The translations under genes and the position numbers were made by a program. Source: Dysgonomonas sp. Marseille-P4677 (GTDB lineage: Bacteria > Bacteroidota > Bacteroidia > Bacteroidales > Dysgonomonadaceae). Taken from it: DNA of 42,682 bases. Each line of letters begins with the position of its first letter. Positions within the stretch are counted from its first letter, which is position 1. Positions 5,523 through 34,595 of this stretch are shown here, piece after piece. The notes under the pieces are model-generated. The model did no database searches. It worked only from the letters and a program-made list of their open reading frames with translations, and was not told the origin of the DNA. The stretch spans positions 1 through 42,682 of the forward strand of contig NZ_JAEPKU010000022.1 of assembly GCF_016652235.1 (NCBI RefSeq). Direction: 5' to 3'.

Positions 5523-5536
5523 ATCAAATATTGACT

Positions 5537-6688: not shown

Positions 6689-6701
6689 TAAAACTCATAC
6701 T

Positions 6702-7739: not shown

Positions 7740-7769
7740 TTAAAAGAAGAAATTAGAATAAATAATATT

Positions 7770-8573: not shown

Positions 8574-8589
8574 TAATAATATTAAACGG

Positions 8590-8649
8590 CAAGTAGGTAT
8601 GGCTCATAACCATTGTTTCGATTGATTTTTTCGTATACATATCTACTTG
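8590..8649 (+). other. Intercistronic hairpin between kduD and kdgA
   Basis: The 100-nt gap between the two genes contains a long inverted repeat. CAAGTAGGTATG (8590-8601) pairs with CATATCTACTTG (8638-8649), 12 bp with a single G-U pair and a loop of about 36 nt. No T-run follows, so it is not a classic intrinsic terminator. It could be an mRNA processing or stability element adjusting expression of the last two genes. This is the longest gap in the operon, and the rest of it is AT-rich without a clear -7 box. Confidence 0.45.
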
Positions 8650-8673
8650 TCTGTCTAGAAAAAATAAATATAA

Positions 8674-9348: not shown

Positions 9349-9365
9349 ATCCTACCTAAAATATC

Positions 9366-10796
9366 ATGAACACATTGAATAAGATTAATGAACATATGAC
9401 AACGTATAGATGGACAATCTGTGCTTTATTATTTTTTGCCACTACAATCAACTATCTGGATCGTCAGGTGCTTTCTCTTTTACAGCCAATGCTGGAAGAA
9501 GAATTTCATTGGACAGACAGTGATTATGGTACAATTACATCTGTTTTCTCATTGGGCTATGCTTTTTGTATGCTATTTGCCGGTCGTTTTATCGATAAGA
9601 TGGGAACAAAGAAAGGATATGCGATTGCTATCGCTGTCTGGTCTGCTGCTGCTTGTTTACATGCCGTTTGCGGTCTTATTACAGAACAAATAACAGGTTT
9701 ACCTGATGCCGATGCTTTGAGAAATGCAACAGGGCCGATTGTTGGTACTATTGCCACAACCAGTATCATTACCTTTGTTATTGCCCGTTTACTACTGGCT
9801 TTAGGTGAAGCCGGAAACTTTCCTGCTGCGATAAAGGCTACAGCCGAATATTTTCCAAAACGAGATAGGGCTTTTGCAACAGGTATATTTAACTCAGGTG
9901 CAAATGTAGGTGCAATCCTAGCTCCTCTAACCGTTCCTTTTATGGCTGATGCATGGGGTTGGGAAATGGCATTTATTGTAGTTGGAGCTGTAGGTTTTAT
10001 CTGGTTAATTTTTTGGTTGATGTTATATAAAGATCCAAAAAACAATCCGGATATGAACGATGCAGAACGTGCATATATCAATCAGGATTATGCAGAAGAA
10101 AAAGCAGAAGAATCTAAAGCTAAAGAACCCAAAGTACCATTCAAGCAATGCTTCAAGTACAAACAAACATGGGCTTTTGCATTCGGTAAATTTATGACAG
10201 ATGGTGTATGGTGGTTTTTCTTGTTCTGGACTCCGGCATATCTGAAAGCTGAATATGGTATGCAAGCAACTGAGATTGCATTGCCTATTGGTATCCTTTA
10301 TACAATCACCGTATTCGGGTCTGTATTTGGAGGAAAATTCCCTACTTATTTTATTAATAAAGGAATGAACCCTTATGCCGGACGTATGAAAGCAATGTTT
10401 ATTATAGCCTTGTTCCCTTTGTTCATATTATTGGCACAGCCATTAGGCCATCTGGAAGTATTAGGTGGATATGGATATTGGATACCGATCGTACTGATTG
10501 GTATTGGAGGAGCTGCACATCAGGCATGGTCGGCAAATATATTCTCCACAATCGGCGATATGTTTCCTAAAAGAGCGATTGCAACCATTACAGGGATCGG
10601 AGGAATGGCTGGAGGTATCGGCTCTTTCTTTATACAAAAGGGAAGTGGTATGCTCTTTGATTACAGCTTTTTAGAATGGGGTAGTAAAACTCAAGGATAT
10701 ACAATTGTATTCTCTTTTTGTGCTGTTGCATACCTCATAGGATGGATAGTTATGAAATTCTTAGTTCCTAAATTTAAACCTATTACAGATTTATAA
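9366..10796 (+). CDS. exuT: Hexuronate permease, MFS anion:cation symporter family
   Basis: A 476-aa inner-membrane transporter with about twelve hydrophobic segments and the ACS-family start (RWTICALLFFATTINYLDRQVLSLL). A central cytoplasmic loop rich in Lys/Glu (YAEEKAEESKAKEPK) separates the two halves. Placement at the end of the uronate operon indicates proton-coupled uptake of glucuronate, and perhaps galacturonate or unsaturated uronates, from periplasm to cytosol. The first ATG at 9366 gives an extra 11 residues before MTTYRWTICALL; the second Met is a possible alternative start. The exact substrate is inferred. Confidence 0.88.
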   Translation: MNTLNKINEHMTTYRWTICALLFFATTINYLDRQVLSLLQPMLEEEFHWTDSDYGTITSVFSLGYAFCMLFAGRFIDKMGTKKGYAIAIAVWSAAACLHAVCGLITEQITGLPDADALRNATGPIVGTIATTSIITFVIARLLLALGEAGNFPAAIKATAEYFPKRDRAFATGIFNSGANVGAILAPLTVPFMADAWGWEMAFIVVGAVGFIWLIFWLMLYKDPKNNPDMNDAERAYINQDYAEEKAEESKAKEPKVPFKQCFKYKQTWAFAFGKFMTDGVWWFFLFWTPAYLKAEYGMQATEIALPIGILYTITVFGSVFGGKFPTYFINKGMNPYAGRMKAMFIIALFPLFILLAQPLGHLEVLGGYGYWIPIVLIGIGGAAHQAWSANIFSTIGDMFPKRAIATITGIGGMAGGIGSFFIQKGSGMLFDYSFLEWGSKTQGYTIVFSFCAVAYLIGWIVMKFLVPKFKPITDL

Positions 10797-10816
10797 TATT
10801 GGGTATAAATAAAAAC

Positions 10817-10854
10817 AAAGAAACGGAAGAATACATGTATTCTTCCGTTTCTTT
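10817..10854. terminator. Bidirectional terminator between exuT and xylE
   Basis: A perfect 38-bp palindrome (arms begin AAAGAAACGGAAGAATA) fills the 75-bp gap between the convergent exuT and xylE genes. Its A/T-rich ends supply a T-rich tail in either direction, so it can end both the hexuronate and the xylose transcripts. Confidence 0.85.
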
Positions 10855-10871
10855 ATATTGTCAATATTTTC

Positions 10872-12428
10872 TTACTTCTTCCAAAGTTTTTCCATATCCT
10901 CCAGTGTTTTACCCTTTGTTTCAGGTAAACGTTTCCAAACAAACAAAGCTGCAAGAACAGCTAATGCACTGTAAACCCAGTAAGAGAATCCATGATTAAA
11001 CATACTTACCAAAGTCTCGTTCTTATCCATAATAGGGAATGTCCACGAAACAAGGAAATTAGAAACCCATTGAGCTGCGACAGCAATAGACATTACACTT
11101 GAGCGAACCGAATTAGGAAATATTTCGGCTAACATTACCCAGCAAACAGGCCCCCACGACATGGCAAAACCAGCTGTATAAGTCAACATGAATACAAGTT
11201 TTAAACCTCCTGGTAATCCTTGAGAGAAAGATGTTCCTAATCCTAACATAGATACTGCCATAACCAAGGCTCCTGTTATCAAGAGAGGCTTACGGCCAAA
11301 TTTATCTACTGTCATAATAGCCAATACTGTAAATGACAGATTGATAACTCCTACAATAATAGTTTGCAACAATGCCGAATCTGTACCCGAACCCATACTC
11401 TTAAATATTTCGGGTGCATAATATAAAACAACATTGATACCGACAAACTGCTGGAATGCAGAAAGTAAAACACCTGTCATTATAATAAGGAATCCATAAG
11501 ATTTGATAGGAACATATAGCGCTATAAGGAAACTGACAATCATAGATATTTCCAATGCACTCGGAATACCTGCCAAAGAAAGAGAAATAATTCCTATAAC
11601 AAATAAAATCAGCCATGTCATCATAAATCTATAATATGGCTTTAGAGAGACTGTCTCCTCATTATCAAAACTATTCTTTATTTCTGTTATCTCCTGCTTA
11701 GCCAAAAGACCTCCTACCAGCTTGGTTAGAATACCTTCAGCTTCTTCGATACGCCCTCTCATGACTAACCATCTTGGAGTTTCAGGTGCAATAAATAGTA
11801 ACACAAAAAAGATTAAAGATGGAATTGCCAATGAAGCAAACATATAACGCCAACCGGTTGTATGCAACCACTCTGTATCACCTTGTTTTGCAATAAAGTA
11901 GTTAACGAAATAGACAACAAGCATACCAAAAATAATGGCAAACTGATTAAGCCCAACTAGGCTACCTCTCTTATTCGGCGGCGCAATTTCGGCGATATAC
12001 ATAGGTGATACCATAGAAGCGATTCCCACTCCTACTCCTCCTAATATACGATATATTACAAAGTGATATACAAAAGTATGGTCTCCACTACTAGGCATGT
12101 GATAACCTATTTCAGGCCAAGCTGAGCCAATTGCAGCTAACAGAAATAAAATCGCTGCTGCAAACAGGGCTTTTTTACGTCCGAATCTCTGACTTACCCA
12201 TCCTGCTATGGCAGCGCCGAAAATACATCCGATAAGCGCACTGCTGATAACAAATCCTTCCATTGCATTTGCTTCATTGATCGGTAATCCCATCGGATCG
12301 ATAAAGAAATGACGTAGCGATTCTACTGTGCCCGATATGACAGCAGTGTCGTATCCAAACAACAAACCTCCAAGAGTCGCAATAAGGGTGAGTTTTAAGG
12401 TATATGATTTACTTACTTCGTTATTCAT
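10872..12428 (-). CDS. xylE: D-xylose:H+ symporter, sugar porter family
   Basis: A 518-aa MFS sugar transporter with twelve predicted membrane segments. Sugar-porter signatures are visible: GGLLFGYDTAVISG near the N-terminus, QRFGRKKA after TM2, PETPRWLV after TM6, DKFGRKPL in the second half, and PETKGKTLE near the C-terminus. It is somewhat longer than E. coli XylE (491 aa). It is the last gene of the xylR-xylB-xylA-xylE set and imports xylose for XylA. A hairpin lies between xylA and xylE, so its expression may be lower or separately set. A related pentose or hexose substrate cannot be excluded, but context favours xylose. Confidence 0.9.
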   Translation of the reverse strand: MNNEVSKSYTLKLTLIATLGGLLFGYDTAVISGTVESLRHFFIDPMGLPINEANAMEGFVISSALIGCIFGAAIAGWVSQRFGRKKALFAAAILFLLAAIGSAWPEIGYHMPSSGDHTFVYHFVIYRILGGVGVGIASMVSPMYIAEIAPPNKRGSLVGLNQFAIIFGMLVVYFVNYFIAKQGDTEWLHTTGWRYMFASLAIPSLIFFVLLFIAPETPRWLVMRGRIEEAEGILTKLVGGLLAKQEITEIKNSFDNEETVSLKPYYRFMMTWLILFVIGIISLSLAGIPSALEISMIVSFLIALYVPIKSYGFLIIMTGVLLSAFQQFVGINVVLYYAPEIFKSMGSGTDSALLQTIIVGVINLSFTVLAIMTVDKFGRKPLLITGALVMAVSMLGLGTSFSQGLPGGLKLVFMLTYTAGFAMSWGPVCWVMLAEIFPNSVRSSVMSIAVAAQWVSNFLVSWTFPIMDKNETLVSMFNHGFSYWVYSALAVLAALFVWKRLPETKGKTLEDMEKLWKK

Positions 12429-12505
12429 TGGTAAAAGGTTCTTAAGGTCATAGACCTATTTTTAATTTACGTAGGCATTAATTTTTACTGTTAGTAATAG
12501 AAAAA

Positions 12506-12536
12506 GGGTACAGGATTATATTTTAATCCTGCACCC
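12506..12536 (-). terminator. Terminator-like hairpin downstream of xylA
   Basis: GGGTACAGGATTA and TAATCCTGCACCC form 13-bp arms with one G-U pair around a 5-nt loop. On the - strand the hairpin is followed by a T-run (rc of 12501-12505 and beyond), the form of an intrinsic terminator. It sits between xylA and xylE, so it may partly terminate the operon and lower transporter expression. Confidence 0.7.
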
Positions 12537-12544
12537 AATTAATA

Positions 12545-13873
12545 TTAAATATACATATTTACAATAGCTTCATACAATTCTTGCTTACCGCTTATTTGTT
12601 TCGGTTCGCCTACTTTATGCGCAATTGTACGTAAATCCTCAAGAGTTAACTTACCTTCTTCAAATGCTTTACCATTACCATTATCGAAAGAAGCATAACG
12701 AGCCTGACGCAATTTATTATAATCGGAATGTTGCAAAATATCAGCAGCGATAAGAAGCCCGCGAGCAAATACATCCATACCCGAAATATGAGCAATAAAT
12801 AAGTCATCCATATCTGTAGAATTACGACGGATTTTGGCATCGAAGTTTACACCACCATTGCCTAGGCCTCCGGCTGGAAGCAATACTAACCATGCCTGAG
12901 CCAAATCGTATAAGTCGATAGGGAACTGATCTGTATCCCATCCATTCTGATAATCTCCGCGATTAGCATCGATACTACCTAACAGACCTGCATCTACAGC
13001 AGCTTGCAATTCATGTTCAAATGTGTGTCCGGCTAATGTAGCATGATTTACTTCGATATTAACTTTAAAGTCCTTATCTAAGCCATAATGACGAAGGAAA
13101 CCAATAACAGTCTCTGTATCGAAATCATATTGATGTTTGGTTGGTTCCATTGGTTTTGGCTCGATAAGGAATGTTCCTGTAAAACCTTGTTTGCGAGCAT
13201 AGTCACGAGATATACTCAGGAAGCGTGCAAGATGTTCTTTCTCACGTTTCATGTCTGTATTCAACAGACTCATATAACCTTCACGTCCTCCCCAGAATAC
13301 ATAGTTTGCTCCACCAAGAGCAATAGTTGCATCAATAGCATTCTTAACCTGAGTACCTGCACAAGCTACTACATCAAAATCAGGATTTGTAGAAGCTCCG
13401 TTCATATATCGTTCATGGCTAAATACATTTGCTGTACCCCAAAGTAATTTAATACCTGAAGCTGCTTGTTTTTCTTTAGCATAATCAACTATGGCTTGCA
13501 AATTCTTCTCATATTCAGTCCACGAGCTACCTGCATCCACTAAGTCTACATCGTGAAAACAATAATAAGGAATACCCATTTTGGTCATAAACTCAAAAGC
13601 TGCATCCATCTTATATTTAGCGCTACTGATTGCATCATTTCCTATATTCCATGGGTGATGAATTGTAGCTCCGCCAAAAGGGTCTGCCCCATTTGCACAT
13701 AACGAATGCCAATAAGCCATTGCAAAGCGCATCCACTCTTTCATCGGTTTACCCATTACTACTCTATTTTCATCATAAAAACGGTAAGCAAGCGGGTTTT
13801 TACTGTCTTTTCCTTCAAATTTTATTTTTCCTATTCCCGGAAAAAATTCTTTTGTACCTTTCAAAATTTCCAT
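12545..13873 (-). CDS. xylA: Xylose isomerase
   Basis: A 442-aa enzyme, the same size class as E. coli XylA (440 aa). It converts D-xylose to D-xylulose in the cytosol using divalent metals. The catalytic His-Asp pair is His107 and Asp110 in [13 protein letters not shown], and metal-ligand regions follow in [35 protein letters not shown] and [17 protein letters not shown]. It lies 34 nt downstream of xylB, so the two are co-transcribed and provide consecutive steps. Assignment is firm. Confidence 0.97.
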
Positions 13874-23317: not shown

Positions 23318-25585
23318 TTATATACCACCGTTGACGCCCCATGTTTCGGATGGTTTGTCCCCCATCTCAAACTCTAGTACGCCACCAGTCTCAATATCTT
23401 TAAAATCAATATAGAACTTATCATAGTCCTTACCATTAAGTGTAACACTTTGGATATATTTATTGGCAACGCTATTATTCTTAGCCACAACTTTAAATAT
23501 CTTTCCATCCTTTACTCTGATTGAGGCTTCACTTACAATAGGGCTACCAAAAACATATTTTCCTCCCGCCGGTTCTACCTGATAGAAGCCTAAAGCTGAT
23601 AATACATACCAAGCCGACATTTGGCCGACATCCTCATTTCCTGAAAGCCCTGCCGGTTTGTCAAAATAAAGTTCCGACATTACTTGACGAACTTTATCTG
23701 CAGTTTTCCACGGTTGTCCTACATATGGATACATATACAATACATGATGACTTGGTTCGTTACCATGTGCGTATTGCCCTATAAGTCCACTAATATCAGG
23801 AGAAGCATGTTCGCCTAACGATCCTTCTACAATGAATAAAGAATCGAGTTTCTGTACGAAAGCCTCTTTACTTCCGAACAAGTCAACAAGGCCTTTTATA
23901 TCATGAGGTACTAACCATGTGTATTGCCATGCATTACCTTCCGTATAATCATTATCACGATGAACAGATTCGAAAGGATTGAATGGCGTTCTGAATTTAC
24001 CATCCGAAGACAAACCTCTCATAAACCCTGTCGATTTATCAAAATAATGTGTATATGCTTTACTTCTTTTCAAGAAATATTCATAATCTTCTGTCTTTCC
24101 CATCGATTGAGCTACCTGAGCAATAGCCCAATCAGCAATTGCGTATTCCATTGCTTTAGACAGCCCCTCGCTTTCACCTTTATCGAAAGGAATATAACCA
24201 TACTCTTTCATATACTTGAGGCCTCTTTCGTCAAGCATTGCTGATTTTTTCATTGCTTCGAAAGCTAGTTCTTTGTCGAAACCGGTATATCCCTTCAAAA
24301 TTGCATCGGCTACAACTGAAATACCCGGATTTCCAACCATACAATCGGTCTCACATCCCATAAGATGCCATACTGGTAATTTACCTTGTTGTTGATAAAT
24401 TGTAAGCATTGTATTTATAATGTCACTCATTTTCTCAGGATGAATAATAGTCATCAAAGGATGTGCAGCACGATAGGTATCCCATAGAGAGAAGGTTGTA
24501 TAATTCTTAAAAGTACCTTGCTTATGCATTTGAGCGTCGGATCCTCTGTAATCATTGTTTACATCACAAAATTCGGACGGCGCAATCATTGTATGATAAA
24601 GGGCTGTATAAAAATTTCTCTTGATAGTATTATCATCTGTAGAGATGATTATCTTATTCAATTCCTCATTCCATGCCTGATCTGCATCTGCTATTGTTTT
24701 TTCGAAATTCCATCCCGGCAATTCAGCCTGCATGTTCAACTTTGCATTTTCGATACTAACCGGAGACAAAGCTACTTTTACATATATTTCCTCTTTATCT
24801 TTAGTATCAAACAGAGCTTGTCCAAATACCCCTACAGCTTTAAGCTCAGTCCCTTCTTTTACTTCTTCACCTTCCGACAAAAGGAACTTCTTCATTGGTT
24901 TTGAAAACGAAGCAGTGAAGAATACACGTTGATCATTGGCCCAGCCTTTAGAAAAACGATAACCAGATATGGTCGAATCGTTTTCGTATACTAAATATGT
25001 ATCAACTGGCGCATCCCAGTTAAGAGCACTCTTCAGATCGATTACGATCTGTGCATTATCAGATTGAGGAAATGTGTATTTATGAAAACCGACTCTTTTT
25101 GTAGCAGTCAATTCTACATCTACATTGTATCTATCAAGATGCACTGCATAATAACCAGCTTTAGCAATTTCAGTTTTTCTGTTAAAAAGAGAATACATTC
25201 CCGAATTAGGATCGGAGATTTCACCTTTACCTAATTTCACATCACCTACTACAGGCATAAAGGCTATATCTAGTAAATCACCAATACCTGTGCCACTCAA
25301 ATGCATGTGCGTAAATCCCCAGATGGTAGAGTCTGAAATATGATAACCGGAACACCAATCCCATCCTCCAGTTATATTTGTTGGACCAAGCTGTACTAAT
25401 CCAAAAGGCACATTGGCCCCAAGAAAGACATGTCCATGATCTCCCGTTCCGATATAAGGATCGACATATTGTGTCAGATTAATACTCTGCAAATCTTTTG
25501 TGGATTCATTGCAAGAAGAAAGCAATGCGCAAGAAATAATTCCTAAGCAAATGGCTTTCGTCATTCGACTAATTTTAAAATTCAT
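23318..25585 (-). CDS. GH92 alpha-mannosidase lipoprotein
   Basis: A 755-aa glycoside hydrolase of family GH92, exo-acting calcium-dependent alpha-mannosidases of Bacteroidetes. A signal peptide ends in a lipobox (LLSSC, Cys25), so it is probably a periplasmic or outer-membrane lipoprotein. The N-terminal beta-domain holds VDPYIGTGDHGHVFLGANVPFGLVQLGP and GWDWCSGYH. The catalytic (alpha/alpha)6 barrel holds TFSLWDTYRAAHP, the HGNEPSHH segment (607-614) and the signature GNEDVGQMSAWY (649-660). It lies downstream of susC/susD and is the only degradative enzyme in the locus. Linkage specificity (alpha-1,2, 1,3, 1,4 or 1,6) cannot be read reliably. The target is probably N-glycan or mannan oligosaccharides. 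Confidence 0.95.
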   Translation of the reverse strand: MNFKISRMTKAICLGIISCALLSSCNESTKDLQSINLTQYVDPYIGTGDHGHVFLGANVPFGLVQLGPTNITGGWDWCSGYHISDSTIWGFTHMHLSGTGIGDLLDIAFMPVVGDVKLGKGEISDPNSGMYSLFNRKTEIAKAGYYAVHLDRYNVDVELTATKRVGFHKYTFPQSDNAQIVIDLKSALNWDAPVDTYLVYENDSTISGYRFSKGWANDQRVFFTASFSKPMKKFLLSEGEEVKEGTELKAVGVFGQALFDTKDKEEIYVKVALSPVSIENAKLNMQAELPGWNFEKTIADADQAWNEELNKIIISTDDNTIKRNFYTALYHTMIAPSEFCDVNNDYRGSDAQMHKQGTFKNYTTFSLWDTYRAAHPLMTIIHPEKMSDIINTMLTIYQQQGKLPVWHLMGCETDCMVGNPGISVVADAILKGYTGFDKELAFEAMKKSAMLDERGLKYMKEYGYIPFDKGESEGLSKAMEYAIADWAIAQVAQSMGKTEDYEYFLKRSKAYTHYFDKSTGFMRGLSSDGKFRTPFNPFESVHRDNDYTEGNAWQYTWLVPHDIKGLVDLFGSKEAFVQKLDSLFIVEGSLGEHASPDISGLIGQYAHGNEPSHHVLYMYPYVGQPWKTADKVRQVMSELYFDKPAGLSGNEDVGQMSAWYVLSALGFYQVEPAGGKYVFGSPIVSEASIRVKDGKIFKVVAKNNSVANKYIQSVTLNGKDYDKFYIDFKDIETGGVLEFEMGDKPSETWGVNGGI

Positions 25586-25634
25586 TATATGTTAGATTTA
25601 TGATTCCTTATCTTACGTAACCTCTACAATATGA

Positions 25635-25642
25635 CAAAAATA
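25635..25642 (-). promoter_or_regulatory. Candidate -7 element of the GH92 gene
   Basis: On the - strand TATTTTTG (25642 to 25635) matches TAnnTTTG, about 50 nt before the GH92 start. The nearest TTTG upstream is 27 nt away, too far for a good -33. It may give GH92 a basal promoter separate from susCD. Confidence 0.35.
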
Positions 25643-25704
25643 AGGAATAATATTATAGAAAAATGTTAACAAATATTATAATATCAAGAATATAGGTAAA
25701 GTAT

Positions 25705-25731
25705 GGGGTTACCTCTCACAGTGGTAACCCC
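25705..25731. terminator. Hairpin between susD and the GH92 gene
   Basis: GGGGTTACC (25705-25713) and GGTAACCCC (25723-25731) form a perfect 9-bp stem with a 9-nt loop, about 95 nt after the susD stop. Such hairpins after susD often reduce read-through so that susCD are expressed above downstream enzymes. There is no long T-run on the - strand. The rest of the 241-nt gap is AT-rich and holds only the -7-like element at 25635. Confidence 0.5.
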
Positions 25732-25826
25732 TACTTCCCTTTTTTCTAAGACCTAATACCATTAGAAAGATTTCAATTATAGAAATCGTAAAGGTATATT
25801 TAGATTAACTAAAACATTTCCAAATC

Positions 25827-27395
25827 TTAATTATAACCCGGATTCTGAACAAGTTGAGGATTACGTTGCAATTCATCGTGAGAAATTGGCCACAACAAAT
25901 CAGATTCTTTAAATGTTGCATCTGAACCATTTTTCGCACCTACAAGAGCGACATAATCAACCTGACCTGCTACAGTTGCAGAGATTACAGGGAACATACC
26001 TGTACGAGTACAATCATCCCATATTTTGAATTCTAATGGGAATTCGCGTAAACGTTCAGTCCAGCATTCTTTTACAAAATTATCTTTCGACATAGCCTGA
26101 AGCTCTGTTTTATATTGGTCTACTGTTTTTCCATTCATATCTGCACGAGCTTTAATTTGGGCTAAATATCCAGCGGCCTCTGCAGTAACACCCTCACTCT
26201 GAGCAATTGCCTCTGCACCAACCAATAAAGCTTCTGCTAAACGATAGAAGTTCCAATCTTTAGTAGATTTTCCTGAAGTAAGTAGGGCCTCTTCATCGTA
26301 ATAATACCAACAGCCAGCCACAGTCGAAGTCCATGTCTTGTTTGTTTCCGGATTAGTATAGTTCCAATGGAAGAACTGGTTCGGTTGAATTCGCAAGTCA
26401 TCAGTTTTGTAAACCTTCAAGAATCTGTCTGTAGGACCAAATACTCTCTCAAAGATAGAGTAAGTACCGAATATAGATACAGCTGAAGAACTGAACGCAT
26501 ATGTTGGCCACCAGCCTCCGTTGTTTATTGTCGCATCATATTCTTGCGCATAGATAACTTCGTCCAAATCATCTGTACTACGTAGCTTATTGAAAGCACT
26601 ACCCAAAGCTAAATTGTCATTCGTTGCTAATTTATGAGGAGATTCAATTACAATTTTAGCCATTTTTGCAGCATCTCCGTATTTATTCTGACGCAAATAC
26701 ACATTAGAAAGCAACATTGCAGCAGCATATTTTGTTATACGATGATTATTACTAGCAAATTTAGTAGCAGGAAGAGCATCTACTGCATCTTTCAAATCAG
26801 ATTCCATCAATTCATAGACAGAAGCTTTTGGTGTTCTTGCCAAATAAATATTTTCCATTGATTCATAAGGCTCGGTAGGCATAGGAACATCACCAAAAGT
26901 TTTCACTAAATAATAATAGTTAAAAGCTCGGAAGAATTTAGCTTCAGCTATCAACTTAGACGCAGACGACGAAGCCATACTGATACCTGGGATATATTTA
27001 ATAGCTCCATTGGCTACATTAATTGCTCTATAGCAATTATCCCAAATACTATTCATCGTGCTAGATACTGTACTTGTATTTTGTTGGCGGGTCAATTGAC
27101 GCGCATACAAACAAATAGTCTCCTGACCTTCATAACTATTAGTAAAGTAACCTGTCAACATAGGATCAATAGATGCATTAGGGCCGACATAGGCACTACC
27201 TGCATTGGAAATACGTCCTGGGGCACCATTTCTATATAAATAATTCACATTAGCCAAAGCTTGTGCCTCCGTTTTATAATAAGCCGCTGAAGTCATAGAT
27301 GATCTTGGCTCTTCTTCTAAAAAGTCATTACATGCTGTCATCACCAACAGACTTACACATGCAAGAATATATACTATTTTTTTCATTTCATTCAT
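25827..27395 (-). CDS. SusD-family glycan-binding lipoprotein
   Basis: A 522-aa SusD/RagB-type outer-membrane lipoprotein. The signal peptide ends at the lipobox with Cys22 (MTACNDFLEEEP). The N-terminal tetratricopeptide-like region (SIWDNCYRAINVANGAI, AEAKFFRAFNYYYLVKTFGDVPM) and the C-terminal RLREFPLEFKIWDD and NPGYN ending are standard. It caps the SusC transporter at the cell surface and binds the incoming oligosaccharide. It starts 13 nt after the susC stop and is co-transcribed with it. The ligand is unknown; the GH92 neighbour suggests mannose-containing glycans. A second ATG three codons in (MKKIVYI) is also possible. Confidence 0.96.
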   Translation of the reverse strand: MNEMKKIVYILACVSLLVMTACNDFLEEEPRSSMTSAAYYKTEAQALANVNYLYRNGAPGRISNAGSAYVGPNASIDPMLTGYFTNSYEGQETICLYARQLTRQQNTSTVSSTMNSIWDNCYRAINVANGAIKYIPGISMASSSASKLIAEAKFFRAFNYYYLVKTFGDVPMPTEPYESMENIYLARTPKASVYELMESDLKDAVDALPATKFASNNHRITKYAAAMLLSNVYLRQNKYGDAAKMAKIVIESPHKLATNDNLALGSAFNKLRSTDDLDEVIYAQEYDATINNGGWWPTYAFSSSAVSIFGTYSIFERVFGPTDRFLKVYKTDDLRIQPNQFFHWNYTNPETNKTWTSTVAGCWYYYDEEALLTSGKSTKDWNFYRLAEALLVGAEAIAQSEGVTAEAAGYLAQIKARADMNGKTVDQYKTELQAMSKDNFVKECWTERLREFPLEFKIWDDCTRTGMFPVISATVAGQVDYVALVGAKNGSDATFKESDLLWPISHDELQRNPQLVQNPGYN

Positions 27396-27408
27396 TTTTT
27401 TAGATTAA

Positions 27409-30400
27409 TCAAAATGTTAAATTAAGACCCAATGTGAATGTTTTTGCCCTTGGATATGAAAAGAATGTCATATTTTGACCGAATTTATTTCCATCTCCTT
27501 GAGAAGTACTTTCAGGATCGTATCCTTTAAAGTCACTTGAACAAATCAAAAATAGATTATTTGCACTTCCATAAACACGCAATGCAGAAACACCCAAGCT
27601 TTTACATATTTGCGGAGTAAATGTGTATCCTAATTGTACCATATTACAGCGAAGGTAAGAACCATCGACAACCCAAGATGAATCTACTGTAGTATCCTGA
27701 CCCGCATGACCAGAGTTACTCAAATAAATAGCCTGTTGCATAGTATTAGGATTTGATCCATTATATGCATCATAAAGAATACTACTTAAACCATTAGTGA
27801 TACCAAAACGGTCATATGTAGAGTGATAGAATTGTTGCATAGTCTCCACACCTAATACAAATTGCATATCTACTGTCAGGTCAAAGTTTTTATAAGAGAA
27901 GTTGTTAATAAAGCTACCTGTCAAATCAGGAGTACCCTTACCAAGAATCTCTTTTTCAGTAGAACGTTTAGCACGGCCTACCTGATTAAGTTTACATTCT
28001 CCTGCTTTATAATCTTCTTCTGTGTAAACACCATATCTTCTATAACCATAGAAACTATTCATATTTTCTCCTACGCGAATAATACTTTCATAACCTCCTA
28101 CCCAGCTATTAAGCAAGATATCTTCATTATTTTCGCCTAATGCAAGAACTTTATTCTTATTATAGTTTAGATTTAAAGTAGTACCCCAGTTAAAATCATT
28201 CGTTTTTATAGGTGTTGCATTAATCATTAGATCTAAACCTTGATTTCTTACCGATCCAATATTTTTAAAGATGGTGCTATAACCTGTAGAAGTAGGAATT
28301 GGACAATCCAACAATAAGTCTGTAGTCTTTTTATTATAGTAAGAAACGTCGAAATTCAATCGTTGTTTAAAGAGCCCCAAATCAAACCCTAAATCCCATT
28401 GAGCTGTTTTTTCCCATTTCAAATCAGGATTAGCCATTGAGCTGATATAAGAATATGGCGCACGTGCTCCATCAAGTAAGAAAGTTCCTGCCGAAACAGA
28501 AGCTAATGATTCATAAGGATTGATTTCAGAGTTACCGGTAAGACCATAGCTTGTATGTAACTTCAGATTACTTATAACTGAGTTATTTGCGAGGAATTTC
28601 TCGTTAGATACGATCCAAGCCAAACCTGCTGATGGGAAGAAAGCATATTTATTATTTTTCCCAAATTTAGAAGAACCGTCGTTACGACCTGTAACAGTTG
28701 CAGAATAACGATCTTTATATGTATATGCCAAACGTAGGAAATATGAATTCATTGAACGCTTGTTCCAGTCTGATTGAGGTGACGATGGAGTTGTACCAAC
28801 AGACATATTGTTATATTCGTAAAAATCGTCAGCAAATCCCTCTGTATACATATAATCATAGTCGTAAGTAGTTTGATTCCATGATAGACCAGCCATTGCA
28901 TTAATACGATGATCTTCCATTACCTTGTTATATGTCAGATAAGTCTCTTCTTGCCAATAAAGTTCGTTTGTATGGCTTCTGTATGCCCATCCATTTGGCA
29001 TAGATATATTGTTCAGACTTACTGAAGAATAACCTTTAGTTGATTGTTGTTTGCTATCAATACCTAGCTGAGTTTTCAGGTCCAGACCTTCCATCAAATG
29101 GAATGTTAGAGCAGCATTACCAAAGATTTTAGTATTATATTTTAATCTCTTTTGTAGGTCTAATATCATTACAGGGTTAGACATTCCTTCAAAACCAAAG
29201 GTTTCGTTCATTGTTGAAGACGCAGATGTTGTATAAGCTCCATTTGCATCTCTTACTGGTAACCAAGGCACCATCTCTATCATAGTACGACGAGCATCTT
29301 GTCCACCTCCTGTTTCTGGAGTATATTGACCCCATGTATGATTCACCAATAGATTTACAGCTGTAGACAACCATGGCAGAGGTTTTGCATCATATGTCAG
29401 TTTTGCATTCAAACGTTTTGCATAAGTATTATTTACTACACCCTGCTGATCTGTGTAATTTAAGAATGCTCCTACAGAAGAGTTCTTTCCTCCTTGCTGA
29501 ATATTAAACTGGTGGTTATGAGAAACAGCTGTACGCGTTGCTTCTTTTTGCCAGTCTGTATCATATAAAGGATTACCATTAGCGTCGAAATAATTTCTAT
29601 CAGTAAACCATTTTGAACGATCTAAAGACCAGCTATTTCCTTGATATTTATTCTCATTTTCCAAACCTATCATGAAAGCGTCGGTCCATTCTTGTGCATT
29701 CATAGTATCCATATAGCGAGCAACTGAACTAAGGCTGATTGATCCTTGATAACTTACCATAGTACCTTCACCTTTGTTTCCACGCTTAGTAGTAACCAAT
29801 ATCACACCATTGGCTCCTCTTGCTCCGTAAATAGCCGCAGCAGAAGCGTCTTTCAAGACCTCAATACTTTCTATATCATTCGGATTCAATAAATAGAAAT
29901 CTGACATAACTACACCATCTACAACATATAAAGGATCTGAAGATGAATTTATTGTAGACATACCACGTATAACAACTCTATTAGAATATGCTCCCGGTTG
30001 ACTAGAGTTTGAGAAAATATTAACCCCTGATGCTTTACCACGAAGATTTTCTACTGCACTAAAGTTTTGAGATTTTACCATGTCATCTCCTTTAGCAGTA
30101 GATATTGAACCTGTAACATCTGATTTTCTCATTGTACCATATCCAACAACAACAATCTCATCCAGAAGCGTAACATCCTCAGCTAAAGATATATTTATAT
30201 TACTTTGACCGTTCAATGCTATTTCCTGAGCCTGAAATCCTATAAACGAAAACACTAGAGTTGCATTAGAATCGGATACTTTGAGTGTATATGCTCCATC
30301 TATATCTGTTACAGTACCTACAGTAGTACCTTTAACTGTAACACTTACACCAATAAGCGGTTCTCCATTTGTATCAGTAACCTTTCCTTTTATCGTTTTC

Positions 30401-30810
30401 CCTTCTTGTTGAGGAGAACTTGAATTGGTGTTATAACTTTCATTCTTGTTAGACAGAATGATATGCGACCCCTCCATAGAGTAGCTAACATTTGTATCTT
30501 TAAATAAATCGTTTAATACCTGACTTACAGGCTTAGTGTTAGCATTTACTGATACTCTTTGATTTGTTTCCACCTTATCATTATAAATGAAAAGATAGTC
30601 GGTTTGCTTCTCTATCTCATTCAGCACTTTCTCCAATTGAGTATTCTTTTTATTAATTGTAACCCGTGCATTTTGAGAAAATGTATTCTCTGCGTAGATA
30701 GAGAGAATGCCGACGAATAAAAGTAACGTCGTGATTTTCATGATTCTAAAAAAATGTTTATTTTTCCCATTTTTAGGTAAAAAGTAGTCTTGAAAAACAT
30801 TATTTTCCAT
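27409..30810 (-). CDS. SusC-family TonB-dependent transporter with STN domain
   Basis: A 1133-aa outer-membrane transporter. The order is: short N-terminal extension, signal sequence (about 24-46), STN domain (about 70-121), CarboxypepD_reg-like domain (about 139-212), TonB-box-like LDEIVVVGYG, plug from about 226, then a beta-barrel ending in the typical aromatic terminus (KTFTLGLNLTF). The STN domain is the part that contacts a FecR-type anti-sigma factor, so import of the glycan signals to the ECF sigma factors encoded upstream. Translocation uses TonB energy. The start at 30810 includes the extension common in STN-bearing members; Met24 is an alternative. Susbstrate: probably mannose-containing oligosaccharides, by context. 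Confidence 0.96.
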   Translation of the reverse strand: MENNVFQDYFLPKNGKNKHFFRIMKITTLLLFVGILSIYAENTFSQNARVTINKKNTQLEKVLNEIEKQTDYLFIYNDKVETNQRVSVNANTKPVSQVLNDLFKDTNVSYSMEGSHIILSNKNESYNTNSSSPQQEGKTIKGKVTDTNGEPLIGVSVTVKGTTVGTVTDIDGAYTLKVSDSNATLVFSFIGFQAQEIALNGQSNINISLAEDVTLLDEIVVVGYGTMRKSDVTGSISTAKGDDMVKSQNFSAVENLRGKASGVNIFSNSSQPGAYSNRVVIRGMSTINSSSDPLYVVDGVVMSDFYLLNPNDIESIEVLKDASAAAIYGARGANGVILVTTKRGNKGEGTMVSYQGSISLSSVARYMDTMNAQEWTDAFMIGLENENKYQGNSWSLDRSKWFTDRNYFDANGNPLYDTDWQKEATRTAVSHNHQFNIQQGGKNSSVGAFLNYTDQQGVVNNTYAKRLNAKLTYDAKPLPWLSTAVNLLVNHTWGQYTPETGGGQDARRTMIEMVPWLPVRDANGAYTTSASSTMNETFGFEGMSNPVMILDLQKRLKYNTKIFGNAALTFHLMEGLDLKTQLGIDSKQQSTKGYSSVSLNNISMPNGWAYRSHTNELYWQEETYLTYNKVMEDHRINAMAGLSWNQTTYDYDYMYTEGFADDFYEYNNMSVGTTPSSPQSDWNKRSMNSYFLRLAYTYKDRYSATVTGRNDGSSKFGKNNKYAFFPSAGLAWIVSNEKFLANNSVISNLKLHTSYGLTGNSEINPYESLASVSAGTFLLDGARAPYSYISSMANPDLKWEKTAQWDLGFDLGLFKQRLNFDVSYYNKKTTDLLLDCPIPTSTGYSTIFKNIGSVRNQGLDLMINATPIKTNDFNWGTTLNLNYNKNKVLALGENNEDILLNSWVGGYESIIRVGENMNSFYGYRRYGVYTEEDYKAGECKLNQVGRAKRSTEKEILGKGTPDLTGSFINNFSYKNFDLTVDMQFVLGVETMQQFYHSTYDRFGITNGLSSILYDAYNGSNPNTMQQAIYLSNSGHAGQDTTVDSSWVVDGSYLRCNMVQLGYTFTPQICKSLGVSALRVYGSANNLFLICSSDFKGYDPESTSQGDGNKFGQNMTFFSYPRAKTFTLGLNLTF

Positions 30811-30905
30811 AGATTTACGATGTTTTAAGTTAATACGATCAAATAAATTGTATTGATTTTTTTTTCGAGCCAGTAGGTATTGCAGTACCTATTGGCTTTT
30901 TTTAC
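30810..30905 (+). ncRNA. Putative cis-antisense small RNA opposite the susC leader
   Basis: On the strand opposite susC there is a textbook intrinsic terminator at 30868-30905: 12-bp arms with one G-U pair around a 5-nt loop, then seven T. TAGATTTA (30810-30817) resembles the -7 consensus with one mismatch, and TTG lies at 30790-30792 with a short 17-nt spacer. Transcription from near 30823 would give an RNA of about 80 nt, complementary to the susC 5' leader. Small antisense RNAs in this position are known from Bacteroides glycan loci (DonS in B. fragilis). No expression evidence is available; this is inference from signals. Confidence 0.4.
30868..30905 (+). terminator. Plus-strand terminator in the fecR-susC gap
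   Basis: AGCCAGTAGGTA (30868-30879) pairs with TACCTATTGGCT (30886-30897) and is followed by a T-run to 30904. The orientation is opposite to all genes of this locus: on the - strand the stem is followed by A, not T. It therefore serves a + strand transcript rather than fecR. Confidence 0.65.
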
Positions 30906-30969
30906 AGTATACTCCGCTAGGAATAGCTCATAAGCATTTGGTTTTAATAAGGTTAAACATTAGTTGTAT

Positions 30970-31941
30970 CTACTTAATATAAATAATATGCCTCTCTGTA
31001 TCTCTATTATATACGAACTTCACATCTTTTTGTAATACGCGAAGGGCATAATCCACCCCATCGATAATTCTGAATTTGCCTGTATATATAAGATTACTTA
31101 TTTTAGGATTTTCTATAACAACCTTTACATCATATACTTTCTCAAACGACTTCATTATTTGATAAAAAGGCTCATTCTTAAAACTAATCAAACCTTCCTT
31201 CCATTGGTATGCACTAAAGTCATCAACAAATTCGGCCTGTAACTTTCCGTTACGGAGCAAAGCCTTATTGTTAGGAGTTAAAATTAGTATCTGGGAGGGA
31301 TCTTCTGTTACATTGACTTTTACTCTGCCTTCCATAAGCACAGTTTCGAACTGAAGATTATCGGAATACGCCAACACATCAAATTTTGTACCCAAGGCTT
31401 CTACTATTCCATCTTTAGTCTTAACACGAAACGGGGCATCCTTATCTTTTGCAACATCAAAGTATGCCTGACCATCTAAAATGACCAGACGTTCTTTATC
31501 ATTGAAAGAAACCGGATACTCAATTCTGGTTTTTGCGTTTAACCAAACATTAGTCCCATCAGATAAAGTAAGATTCAATCGTTGACCGGCTGGAACAGAA
31601 ATGACTTGATTTGCTATAAATCTATTGGGTTTATTTATTTGTGTGAAATAAAACCAACTACCCAATAAGGTTATAGTGACAATTGCTGCAATTTTAAGAA
31701 ACTGAAAAAGATAGGTAGATCGCCTTGAACTAATATTAAATGCAGTATTTACTCCGTTTTGTTCAACTACTGAAACCTCTGTATTCAGGAGTATTGCATC
31801 AAATAATCTCCGCTCTTCAAGGAAACGCTTTTCGTTCTCAGTAGAATCGGCCAGCCATTGTTTTATAGCCGTTTCCTCTTCTTCTGTAGCAAATCCTTCA
31901 AAAAATTTGTAAAGTAATTTAAAATCCATTTTTTCTACCAT
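30970..31941 (-). CDS. FecR-family anti-sigma factor
   Basis: A 323-aa inner-membrane regulator. The N-terminal cytosolic part (about 1-77) would hold the ECF sigma factor, a single membrane helix is at about 78-100, the periplasmic FecR domain is at about 109-205 (VISVPAGQRLNLTLSDGTNVWLNAKTRIEYP), and a C-terminal DUF4974-like domain is at about 250-320. It receives the signal from the STN domain of SusC and releases the sigma factor. It lies 53 nt downstream of the proximal sigma gene and 159 nt upstream of susC. A second ATG four codons in (MDFKLLYKFFEG) is a plausible alternative start. Confidence 0.94.
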   Translation of the reverse strand: MVEKMDFKLLYKFFEGFATEEEETAIKQWLADSTENEKRFLEERRLFDAILLNTEVSVVEQNGVNTAFNISSRRSTYLFQFLKIAAIVTITLLGSWFYFTQINKPNRFIANQVISVPAGQRLNLTLSDGTNVWLNAKTRIEYPVSFNDKERLVILDGQAYFDVAKDKDAPFRVKTKDGIVEALGTKFDVLAYSDNLQFETVLMEGRVKVNVTEDPSQILILTPNNKALLRNGKLQAEFVDDFSAYQWKEGLISFKNEPFYQIMKSFEKVYDVKVVIENPKISNLIYTGKFRIIDGVDYALRVLQKDVKFVYNRDTERHIIYIK

Positions 31942-31994
31942 CTATATAAACAACAGATAAAGCAGGAACGTCCCTAGTGAAAAATGAAAAAAAA

Positions 31995-32558
31995 TTATGC
32001 AGAAAGCAGAGTCATAATAAAAGTCATATAATCTTTTAATCTTTCACGCAAAAGTGATAACGCTTTAGTTATATGAAATTCAACACCTTTGGTAGTAATA
32101 TTTAATTCTGCTGCAATCTCTTTATGTGACCTATTCTCATATCTGCTCAACCTAAAAACTTCAAAAGTTCTTTCCGGCAGGGTAGACAATGTGTCGTTTA
32201 CTATTTTTTCTACCTCGAACGAAAACAGTTGTTCCGGATTACAGGCCTCAAGCGTCATAATACGCATCTGCGTTTCCCATACAACATTACTTTGTATATT
32301 ATTGTATGCTTTATACCTCACCTCATTATGCTGTATATGATTGAGGCACCTATTTTTAATTATAGTCAGCACATATGCAGGAATATTAGAATCAGGAGGA
32401 AGGTTTTCTCTATTTTCCCAATAGACCATAAATGCTTCCATAGTTATATCTTCTGCGACTACTAAATCCCGAACATAAGTATTAGCAAAACGGACAAAGC
32501 GCAAACGATAATTCGCAAATAAATCATTAAAAAAACGAACATCAGAAATTCCTGTCAT
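31995..32558 (-). CDS. ECF sigma-70 factor, copy 1 (proximal to fecR)
   Basis: A 187-aa ECF sigma factor of the Bacteroidetes PUL type. Region 2 covers about residues 10-75 (FVRFANTYVRDLVVAEDITMEAFMVYWENR). Region 4 covers about 125-180, with the helix-turn-helix SHKEIAAELNITTKGVEFHITKALSLL. It should direct RNA polymerase to susCD when released by the FecR protein encoded next to it. By hand alignment it differs from the copy at 32739-33302 at only 25 of 187 positions, and the region 4 recognition helix is identical. It is intact, so both copies may be active. Confidence 0.95.
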   Translation of the reverse strand: MTGISDVRFFNDLFANYRLRFVRFANTYVRDLVVAEDITMEAFMVYWENRENLPPDSNIPAYVLTIIKNRCLNHIQHNEVRYKAYNNIQSNVVWETQMRIMTLEACNPEQLFSFEVEKIVNDTLSTLPERTFEVFRLSRYENRSHKEIAAELNITTKGVEFHITKALSLLRERLKDYMTFIMTLLSA

Positions 32559-32660
32559 AGATTAGATGGTATCAAGCTTCCTAAACACATAAAACAAATT
32601 GATCCTATTAGAATCAACTGCCATTATTCAATAAACAAGCCCAAACTTATAGAACAATCT

Positions 32661-32720
32661 AAAAGTCCATTTTACCTACCACCTATATAAATAACAGATA
32701 GAAGCGAAGTATCCCTAGTG
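32661..32720 (-). pseudogene. Vestigial 5' end of a duplicated fecR
   Basis: The stretch just downstream of sigma copy 2 aligns with the fecR start region that follows sigma copy 1 (31919-31979). It contains the same CTATATAAA and CCCTAGTGAAAAA blocks and an ATG-GAC-TTT matching the fecR codons for Met5-Asp-Phe, but the next codon is TAG. It is a relic left by tandem duplication of the sigma gene together with the first codons of fecR. It cannot encode a protein. Confidence 0.7.
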
Positions 32721-32738
32721 AAAAACTAAGAAAAAAAA

Positions 32739-33302
32739 TCATGCTGAAAGGAATGTCACAATAAAAGTCATATAGTCCTTTAATCTTTCACGCAAAAGCG
32801 ACAATGCTTTAGTTATATGAAATTCAACACCTTTAGTAGTAATATTTAATTCTGCTGCAATCTCTTTATGTGACTTATTCTTATATCTACTCAGAGTAAA
32901 GACCTCAAGAGTTCTTTCCGGCAGGGTAGACAATGTGTCGTTTACTATTTTTTCTACCTCAAACGAAAACAGTTGTTCCGGATTACAGGCCTCAAGGGTC
33001 ATAATACGCATCTGCATTTCCCATGAAACATCACTTTGTATATTACTGTAAACCTTAGTGCGCACTTCATTATGTTGCAAATGATTGAGACACTTATTCT
33101 TGATTATTGTCAATATGTATGCAGGAACATTAGAGTCTGATGGAAGATTCTCCCTATTTTCCCAATACGCCATAAAAGATTCTGTTGTAATATCTTCTGC
33201 AATAACTAGATCTCGAACATAAGTATTTGCAAAACGAACAAAACGCAAACGATAGTTTACAAATAAATCATTAAAAAAACGAATATCTGAAATTTCTGCC
33301 AT
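32739..33302 (-). CDS. ECF sigma-70 factor, copy 2 (distal duplicate)
   Basis: A 187-aa ECF sigma factor nearly identical to copy 1. Residues 100-131 and 144-181 are unchanged, while differences gather in the first half and the linker (residues 82-95: YKAYNNIQSNVVWE versus TKVYSNIQSDVSWE). The start at 33302 was chosen because it equals the copy 1 start; a GTG 30 nt upstream is the only longer option. The recognition helix of region 4 is the same, so both may read the same promoters. Region 2 differences could change how FecR holds each one. It is followed by a dead fecR stub, not its own anti-sigma gene. Confidence 0.94.
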   Translation of the reverse strand: MAEISDIRFFNDLFVNYRLRFVRFANTYVRDLVIAEDITTESFMAYWENRENLPSDSNVPAYILTIIKNKCLNHLQHNEVRTKVYSNIQSDVSWEMQMRIMTLEACNPEQLFSFEVEKIVNDTLSTLPERTLEVFTLSRYKNKSHKEIAAELNITTKGVEFHITKALSLLRERLKDYMTFIVTFLSA

Positions 33303-33398
33303 AGATTCGACGATTTCGAGCTTCCTAAGCACATAAAATTTAATCGATTCTCTTTAGAATCAAATCCGCTAAACAATATATCACCACATAAAGTTCAA

Positions 33399-33480
33399 TG
33401 TAAAATATGGATATGCTGAGATTTTACACCGACAAGGCTATATGCGTATTATCACTATAACATGTAATGAGATAATTACA
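33399..33480. repeat. Two inverted repeats upstream of sigma copy 2
   Basis: TGTAAAAT (33399-33406) with ATTTTACA (33421-33428), and TGTAAT (33463-33468) with ATTACA (33475-33480), are both perfect dyads sharing the TGTAA start. They lie about 100-180 nt upstream of the sigma copy 2 start, where a regulator could bind. A -7-like TAGTTTTG on the - strand (33491 to 33484) lies just beyond. The 270-nt gap has no gene. Confidence 0.3.
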
Positions 33481-33524
33481 GCACAAAACTAGATTGCAAT
33501 GCCCTAATTAATAAATAAACAAAA

Positions 33525-33548
33525 GCCGTAAGATTTTGTTCTTACGGC
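33525..33548 (-). terminator. Terminator of the M23 peptidase gene
   Basis: GCCGTAAG (33525-33532) and CTTACGGC (33541-33548) form a perfect 8-bp GC-rich stem with an 8-nt loop. On the - strand it is followed by a T-rich tail. It is 25 nt after the peptidase stop. Confidence 0.8.
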
Positions 33549-33572
33549 CTGTTATTTTATTCTGATAAGATA

Positions 33573-34595
33573 TTAAGATACTCTCAACGATTTTCCTAAA
33601 CGCAATGTGGTTTTTGGTGTAATACTATTCAATGAACACAGTTTAGATACTGTTGTTTTATATTTACGTGCGATCGCACCTAATGTATCTCCTTGTTTTA
33701 CCCGATGGTAATTTACTTTTCCCGATGCGTATTTATTCTTGACATTTGCTTTGGACCTAGTAGCACTTGAAGCAAGATTATTCACGTTAACCCCTTTCGA
33801 ACTCCGACTGTAACTACTTGCTGTAACTGTATAAGTATCTTTATGGCATACTTTATTTTCGAAGTCAACAATATTTATTGGGTTAATTGGGTTTCCTAGG
33901 AAACGAAACTCCAAATGTAGATGCGAACCAGTAGAACGGCCTGTATTACCTCCTAATGCAATCGGATCACCTGATTTAACCACATCGTCCTCTTCCACTA
34001 AAAATTTAGATAGATGCCCATACACAGTTTCTAAACCATTGGGATGACGAATTGTTAGATAATAACCATATCCACGGCGTTCGTATTGCTTCACACGCAC
34101 TTTTCCGTCAAATGCAGCATAAATAGTATCTCCAACTTGCACTTTCAAGTCGATACCATAGTGCATTCTACGACGTCGGGGACCAAAATTAGATGTTACA
34201 TGTCCCATTGTTGGCATTGTAAAATTGGCCAGATTAACCTGAAATGTATCCGGAATATTCTCTATTGAACGATATGCATTTACATAACGATTATTCCATA
34301 TTCCTCCATAAAGATCTTCAGCAGGAATTTCATCTGCCGACAACACTCGCTCTTCTTGTATTTCTTTTAAAATAGATAGGTCTCTTTTTATTTTTATCCC
34401 ATCGGCATAGAGATCATTTCCTGCGGATCTGCTATGGCGTTGTTTGTATTTTAATTCGACTCTATCAGCATTAGTTTCTGAAGAATTAGTCTTTTTTTGA
34501 GCGAAGCCACTCATTGGTATAAAAAACATTGCTGCTAATGGCAATAGTTTTATTCTTTTAAAGGTTACGGTCAAAATATTTTTACTTTTTTGCAT
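33573..34595 (-). CDS. LysM-containing M23 (LytM) peptidoglycan endopeptidase
   Basis: A 340-aa exported protein. The N-terminal hydrophobic signal (about 15-32, ending SGFAQ) has a basic start. The M23 metallopeptidase domain is at about 128-245: HYGIDL supplies His145 and Asp149, YGHL supplies His194, and the HLHLEF motif starts at His225. A C-terminal LysM repeat at about 295-340 (YHRVKQGDTLGAIARKYKTTVSKLCSLN) binds peptidoglycan. All zinc ligands are present, so it should be an active cell-wall hydrolase in growth or division. It is 8 nt downstream of ndk and likely shares its transcript. Confidence 0.93.
   Translation of the reverse strand: MQKSKNILTVTFKRIKLLPLAAMFFIPMSGFAQKKTNSSETNADRVELKYKQRHSRSAGNDLYADGIKIKRDLSILKEIQEERVLSADEIPAEDLYGGIWNNRYVNAYRSIENIPDTFQVNLANFTMPTMGHVTSNFGPRRRRMHYGIDLKVQVGDTIYAAFDGKVRVKQYERRGYGYYLTIRHPNGLETVYGHLSKFLVEEDDVVKSGDPIALGGNTGRSTGSHLHLEFRFLGNPINPINIVDFENKVCHKDTYTVTASSYSRSSKGVNVNNLASSATRSKANVKNKYASGKVNYHRVKQGDTLGAIARKYKTTVSKLCSLNSITPKTTLRLGKSLRVS

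Follow-up and report, generated by a model that had tools for sequence, protein, structure and literature searches.

What becomes of a sigma/anti-sigma circuit when its sigma factor gene is duplicated together with the beginning of the adjoining anti-sigma gene? This question is raised by a polysaccharide utilisation locus (PUL) of Dysgonomonas sp. Marseille-P4677, in which two genes for extracytoplasmic function (ECF) sigma factors, sigA and sigB, lie in tandem in front of a single fecR-type anti-sigma gene. The window analysed is one whole contig of 42.7 kb (NZ_JAEPKU010000022.1, 42,682 nucleotides, G+C content of 36.5%) from a genome assembly of 4.73 Mb in 278 contigs, with gene families that look like those of Bacteroidales. 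Between sigA and sigB lies a dead remnant of fecR, hereafter called the stub, which carries a second copy of the element AGGGA-N15-TGTT that also precedes fecR (N15 stands for fifteen bases of spacer). With a probability of roughly 0.53, we propose that the duplication and the capture of this promoter-like element may have created a sigma-driven positive feedback on sigB, with both sigma factors under one FecR. A sequence-only reading of the locus had envisaged a recent duplication with a leaky or graded response; capture of the element by sigB appears likelier than such a dosage effect.

A tandem repeat with two intact sigma genes

The alignment of positions 31903-32633 with 32643-33378 revealed a direct repeat, in which 619 of 738 columns are identical (84%) and nine gaps occur. 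The duplicated unit starts some 75 bases ahead of the sigma start codon and reaches roughly as far as codon nine of fecR. Both sigma genes are intact open reading frames (ORFs) for 187 amino acids, which differ at 78 of 561 bases and, exactly as the sequence-only reading had counted, at 25 of 187 residues. The nonsynonymous divergence (dN) of 0.071 against a synonymous divergence (dS) of 0.591, a ratio of 0.12, suggests that both copies have been kept functional by purifying selection. An assembly artefact was rejected because of the limited identity of the copies and their position about 9 kb inside the contig.

The stub reads ATG GAC TTT TAG on the minus strand (32670-32659), with the stop after three codons. 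Its likeness to fecR covers about the first nine codons, which begin with MDF, and continues beyond the stop in another frame; the remainder runs directly into the leader of sigB. Moreover, the two leaders (31911-31994 and 32650-32738) align with a score of 49, compared to a mean of 11.2 (standard deviation 2.0, maximum 23) for 2000 dinucleotide shuffles. These results bear out the earlier claims that the repeat includes the leader and the first codons of fecR and that the stub reads Met-Asp-Phe-stop, and they place the alignment of the stub far above chance. One full fecR is present at the locus, and the two sigma genes have indeed been left with a single anti-sigma gene.

In three relatives (genomes G002, G003 and G019), each syntenic locus has a single sigma gene and a single fecR together with susC and susD, and the neighbouring genes for nucleoside diphosphate kinase (NDK) and an M23 protein are kept at 83-87% amino-acid identity; the stretch from M23 to the sigma gene is interrupted by an assembly gap (run of N) in G019. 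A maximum-likelihood tree of 23 sequences, from which a wrong-frame row, a one-residue row and a duplicate had been removed, places sigA and sigB as sisters with a support of 100. The comparison set comprised one genome per species. Because the three syntenic relatives have a single sigma gene and the copies are sisters in the tree, the tandem duplication is, on this evidence, specific to this lineage. An ancient gene pair, which the sequence-only reading had named as the competing case, was examined and rejected by tree and synteny. No other same-strand pair of close sigma copies was seen by eye among the TIGR02985 matches listed for six genomes of the genus. Two neighbouring sigma genes in G003 and G019 were considered as a parallel case and rejected, as these ECF genes are unrelated to each other.

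With respect to age, the earlier claim needs correction. The low synonymous divergence expected of a recent duplication was not found when dN/dS was computed, with a dS of 0.59 overall and 1.05 in codons 1-94. The third-position difference between this genome and its relatives is mostly 0.4-0.6, and silent sites are near saturation. Judged by the dS between the copies and the near-saturation among relatives, the duplication is therefore younger than the species split yet not recent.

Divergence between the copies is uneven. In codons 95-131, a block that was picked after viewing the alignment, dS drops to 0.09 and third positions are changed at two of 37 sites; for codons 1-94, the corresponding count is 32 of 94 (Fisher p = 0.0007). 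The same block differs at 17-29 of its 37 third positions between sigA and nine relatives. A window-variance test for uneven divergence gave a p of 0.00075; permutation tests for gene conversion that used the longest run fell short of significance (p 0.14 and 0.19). Since codons 95-131 are near-identical at silent sites that vary freely among relatives, partial gene conversion between sigA and sigB is the best reading of this pattern. The uneven divergence would also fit an origin in which two divergent alleles were joined in tandem through recombination with a related strain, rather than duplication followed by divergence. Indeed, the locus is a mosaic: identity to G019 amounts to 93% for the SusC barrel yet 69% for FecR, SusD shares 87% with G019 and 47% with G002, and the protein of glycoside hydrolase family 92 (GH92) shares 70% with G019 and 92% with G002. 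However, no homologue detected in the 61 genomes searched is as close to sigA or sigB as these two are to one another, and a joining of alleles, for which there is no known donor, is considered unlikely.

The AGGGA-N15-TGTT element in relatives

The gap between sigma gene and fecR was compared in 26 of 28 sigma loci, the loci of G028 and G034 being without a fecR match. Amid poorly conserved sequence, two boxes, AGGGA and TGTT, lie 15 bases apart. The strict pattern AGGG[AT]-N15-TG[TC][TC] was found before fecR in 20 of the 26 loci, as compared to 0.05 expected from base shuffling. At other spacings from 10 to 20, the strict boxes occurred once at 10 and four times at 18 (loci with TGTTGTT), and nowhere else. 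All 26 loci can be read at spacing 15 only with relaxed boxes that were picked after viewing them.

A further set of 18 scorable fecR genes, 16 from seven further genomes and two from this genome out of 22 loci, was then scored at spacing 15. The strict pattern was present in five, the wider in 10 and the loosest in 14 of the 18 genes (expected 0.07, 0.27 and 0.74, respectively). The strict and wider patterns had been fixed beforehand on the first set and the loosest was devised later; the set includes one previously viewed gene (L131, the fecR of locus L003). One row with a start off the locus and one duplicate had been dropped, and loci L122, L123, L136 and L137 are without a scorable fecR start. 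Altogether, the element precedes fecR in one subfamily of these genes, which is represented in several families of the order.

Two loci differ in arrangement. A distant relative (L127, G099 C18 92146-94619) has two tandem fecR genes behind one sigma gene, the mirror image of the locus described here, and its strict element goes with the second fecR and not with the first. In L077 (G016, 5411-12649), about 5.7 kb separate the sigma gene from fecR, a distance not seen at the other loci compared.

Measured to the aligned start of fecR, the distance of the element ranges between 36 and 80 bases in the 12 loci with CTAGGG, and the spacing of the boxes is constant; therefore, a promoter fits better than a translation signal. 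The strict element is also absent from the 300 bases upstream of all 28 other sigma genes inspected, 27 from relatives and sigA itself. The G-rich, -35-like box and TGTT at fixed spacing resemble known ECF promoters, and the element is thus likely to be a sigma-dependent ECF promoter of fecR. For instance, two promoters of the SigW-1 (ECF) regulon of Bacteroides thetaiotaomicron carry TGTT near -10 (PMC12596196). In Flavobacterium psychrophilum, the -10 box of an ECF-type motif reads CGT (PMC9723704), and EcfG promoters read GGAAC-N16-CGTT (PMC7083833). AGGGA-N15-TGTT was not found described in the full-text literature available, in which its letters were sought only as 'TGTT' in a few texts; the ECF classification may list the element.

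A candidate feedback on sigB and its alternatives

Within the window, the strict pattern matches twice only, in the fecR leader and in the stub, where the element starts 158 bases upstream of the sigB start codon. The plus-strand blocks CTATATAAA and CCCTAGTG, on which the repeat had been recognised in the sequence-only reading, contain or adjoin both boxes. Between the two copies, none of the 13 box positions (CACTAGGGA plus TGTT) but eight of the 15 spacer positions differ (Fisher p = 0.0025).

From these observations, the following course of events can be proposed. A unit from about 75 bases before the sigma gene to about the ninth fecR codon would have been duplicated in tandem in this lineage, and both sigma factors would have stayed functional, with partial gene conversion between the copies. 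The fecR part of the first copy would have died as coding sequence, and the promoter-like element in its leader would have survived before sigB. In the present circuit, transcription of sigA would start at a promoter of its own ahead of the gene, and its product would be bound by FecR, which is predicted to hold SigB as well. Upon a signal passed on by the SusC-type transducer through FecR, active sigma factor would transcribe from both copies of the element: the copy in the stub would yield more SigB (amplification), and the copy before fecR would yield FecR as a brake and, by transcription that probably reads on into susCD, the output of the system.

Several observations weigh against this proposal. 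AGGGA-N15-TGTT is expected 0.34 times in the window, and at least two matches occurred in six of 100 whole-window shuffles; with CACTAGGGA-N15-TGTT and two mismatches allowed, at least two matches were obtained in 18 of 100. At the 78% identity of the block, nine unchanged core box positions have a chance of about 0.1, and the identity of the boxes could come from gene conversion rather than from selection. TAGGGAT-N14-TGTTAT had 20 matches in the 61 genomes as compared to nine for a reversed control, and nine of the 20 lie at sigma-fecR loci, one being the stub. In the 160 bases before susC, the strict element is present in one of 14 loci and missing in 13, and read-through from fecR into susC therefore has to be assumed. 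Of the 16 further sigma loci in this genome, L004 alone shows the wider pattern, directly behind its sigma gene, and L004 and L008 show a shorter form; the element is therefore a mark of this subfamily rather than of all sigma/FecR pairs. The SigW-1 motif is non-significant according to its authors (PMC12596196). Finally, no terminator-like site lies between sigA and sigB on the minus strand, so that sigB may be co-transcribed with sigA.

The latter point, together with the intactness of both sigma ORFs, would suit a plain dosage effect, in which both genes are transcribed from a promoter before sigA, the element in the stub is inert and a higher ratio of sigma factor to FecR makes the PUL leakier; the unchanged box positions would then be due to chance. 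However, the boxes and their exact spacing have been kept while the spacer and the fecR codons changed, and with a dS of 0.59-1.05 an inert element had time to decay. A dosage effect is the least improbable of the alternatives considered, though still rather unlikely.

A more far-reaching version of the promoter capture is put forward tentatively, as its probability falls somewhat short of even. The fecR stub may have been kept because it carries an ECF promoter, and a relay whose sole feedback was negative, the sigma factor driving its own brake, may have turned into a switch that amplifies itself and is possibly all-or-none. In such a switch, SigA would be the detector and SigB, the faster-evolving of the two, the amplifier. 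AGGGA-N15-TGTT would then be the fecR promoter throughout this subfamily in Bacteroidales PULs. The faster evolution of SigB is suggested by the branch lengths in the tree (0.119 for sigB, 0.023 for sigA). Against it, relative-rate counts with 11 outgroups reached p<0.05 with one (13 vs 3, p = 0.012) and came near with two (10 vs 3), and the difference is absent with outgroup G024 (7 vs 7).

The longer branch may also indicate that SigB has specialised after the duplication, with a different release or recognition, and serves other promoters. The changes from SigA to SigB include the non-conservative T136R, K141E and T82Y. Residues 144-181, which contain the recognition helix TTKGVEFHITKAL, are nevertheless the same in both copies, and the rate difference depends mainly on G002, with whose orthologue SigA is 70% identical. 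A specialised SigB is less probable still than a junction of alleles. The sequence-only reading had correctly noted that the helix is unchanged, from which, together with differences in region 2, it had concluded that the affinity for FecR might be altered. This conclusion is weak: the helix is also kept in five relatives (G002, G003, G019, G010 and G015) and is therefore uninformative about the two copies, and region 4 differs as well, at residues 132, 136, 141 and 143. Moreover, the silent-site identity of codons 95-131 points to gene conversion, which removes the argument from the unchanged helix. In the case of the anti-sigma factor FpvR, binding of one of its two sigma factors has been mapped to region 4 (PMC4256889). 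By eye, 13 aligned sigma proteins, SigB (31995-32030) and SigA (32739-32775) among them, share a short hydrophobic stretch that follows region 4 at the C-terminus, for instance LFFILNK.

The surrounding locus and related systems

The gene order on the minus strand is NDK, the M23/LysM gene, sigA, sigB, fecR, susC, susD and the GH92 gene (Table 1). Sigma factors of the TIGR02985 family (both copies), an adjoining anti-sigma factor with FecR domain and a TonB-dependent transducer with STN domain are all present, as are an adjacent susC/susD pair and a carbohydrate enzyme (TIGR04056, PF07980, GH92). By its genes, the locus is a FecI/FecR-type regulated PUL, in which a signal would release the sigma factor from FecR. 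The GH92 gene presumably encodes an alpha-mannosidase, an activity known for this family, and the substrate of the PUL is on this assumption probably alpha-mannosides.

Table 1. Positions of the features of the locus in the window
Feature	Position	Strand	Evidence
sigA, distal ECF sigma gene, 187 aa	32739..33302	-	TIGR02985 170.1 bits, cut-off 126.4
sigB, proximal ECF sigma gene adjoining fecR, 187 aa	31995..32558	-	TIGR02985 167.6 bits
Leader and stub of fecR, remnants of the duplication	32643..32738	-	alignment to 31903-31994
AGGGA-N15-TGTT, second copy, within the stub, upstream of sigB	32693..32716	-	strict pattern match
AGGGA-N15-TGTT, original copy, upstream of fecR	31952..31975	-	strict pattern match
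fecR, sole anti-sigma gene of the locus, 323 aa	30970..31941	-	PF04773 and PF16344 above cut-off
susC-like TonB-dependent transducer gene with STN signalling domain, 1133 aa	27409..30810	-	PF07660 STN, Plug, barrel, TIGR04056
susD-like lipoprotein gene	25827..27395	-	PF07980, PF14322
GH92 glycoside hydrolase gene	23318..25585	-	PF07971 619 bits, TIGR01180
Terminator-like hairpin 3' of the M23 gene, between the M23 gene and sigA	33523..33550	-	terminator scan

In the region 30700-33700, three terminator-like sites were found as compared to 1.1 expected, and a scan for sigma-70-type promoters yielded 12 matches with 14.0 expected, which is no excess over chance. Bacteroides-type -33/-7 boxes were also sought in front of the genes; the matches were weak and non-conserved and were not used. 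Searches of the whole window with Rfam at gathering scores and for tRNAs gave no matches. A protein scan with query P0001 detected one locus only in genome contigs, a 23%-identical Aneurinibacillus match, and no match in viral contigs.

The leader of susC contains a hairpin, GCCAAT...TGCxGCAACA...ATTGGC (30867-30898, minus strand), which lies at the same place in 13 relative loci (14 leaders, by eye). In eight aligned sequences, six of its 12 pairs are changed on both sides and 92.7% of the cells pair; its covariation score was reached by none of 500 shuffles. The sequence ACATCGTAAATCT immediately 5' of the susC ATG is kept in seven of the 14 leaders. The mosaic character of the PUL extends over 23318-30810, as compared to loci L067, L068 and L069. 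Between G003 and G019, the STN domains of SusC are 97% identical and the barrels 53%; between this genome and G019, the plug is 97% identical. It seems that the transporter part has been exchanged and that the signalling domain has remained together with the FecR and sigma factor of the locus. The interval between M23 and the single sigma gene of G003 contains a perfect (GA)115 tract with a length of 230 bases (L068 8892-9121), and the corresponding interval of G019 holds a GA tract as well as a run of N (L069 from 5725). Of 13 genomes of the genus that were searched, 11 contain a GA 20-mer, with 647 overlapping matches in G003 and 112 in this genome. Such a tract is possibly a slippage-variable control of sigma expression.

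Control of two ECF sigma factors by one anti-sigma factor is known from Pseudomonas aeruginosa, in which FpvR inhibits FpvI and PvdS (PMC4256889). Like the FecR described here, FpvR is a membrane anti-sigma factor of TonB-dependent cell-surface signalling. However, FpvI and PvdS have low identity and separate targets, whereas SigA and SigB are 87% identical tandem copies. Pairs of EcfG sigma factors provide a second likeness. In Sphingopyxis granuli, a constitutive paralogue drives a second one that is itself self-driving, with GGAAC-N16-CGTT before that unit (PMC7083833), and in Rhizobium etli, EcfG1 and EcfG2 share the only NepR found so far (PMC8103513). At the present locus, a conserved element lies before sigB and not before sigA; it would correspond to the target promoter of such a hierarchical pair if it acts as a promoter. 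The EcfG pairs differ in that they belong to alphaproteobacterial stress systems with partner switching and are not tandem duplicates in a PUL; moreover, S. granuli has two NepR genes.

The Fec and Has systems (FecI/FecR/FecA and HasI/HasS/HasR) likewise combine an ECF sigma factor, a FecR-type regulator and a transducer with signalling domain. Their sigma gene is not autoregulated, and HasI raises the expression of the anti-sigma gene hasS (PMC9249621). The relatives compared here resemble this arrangement, as the element precedes fecR in 20 of 26 loci and none of their 27 sigma genes. The Fec and Has systems differ in having one sigma factor per system and in responding to iron or heme rather than glycans, and the accessible part of the article describes no duplicated sigma gene. 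In PUL24 of B. thetaiotaomicron, the genes for sigma factor, anti-sigma factor (BT1877/BT1876) and SusC are consecutive, and deletion of the anti-sigma gene raised the transporter mRNA about 50-fold on glucose (PMC11501099). A spontaneous duplication in PUL24 also placed two genes under a ribosomal promoter, which is a precedent for promoter capture (PMC11501099). However, PUL24 has a single sigma gene, and the captured promoter is ribosomal and serves an enzyme gene; here, the element is linked to sigma factors and the gene behind it encodes one. Full-text searches of the accessible literature yielded no account of an ECF gene duplicated in tandem within a PUL.

If the proposed promoter capture is correct, a single tandem duplication could rewire the feedback of a circuit rather than only alter the dosage of its regulator. 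The locus would then represent a natural experiment, as relatives provide the same sigma/FecR circuit without the candidate sigma feedback that it carries. Moreover, the fixed-spacing element before the fecR genes of one subfamily is a direct candidate for their promoter and open to testing.

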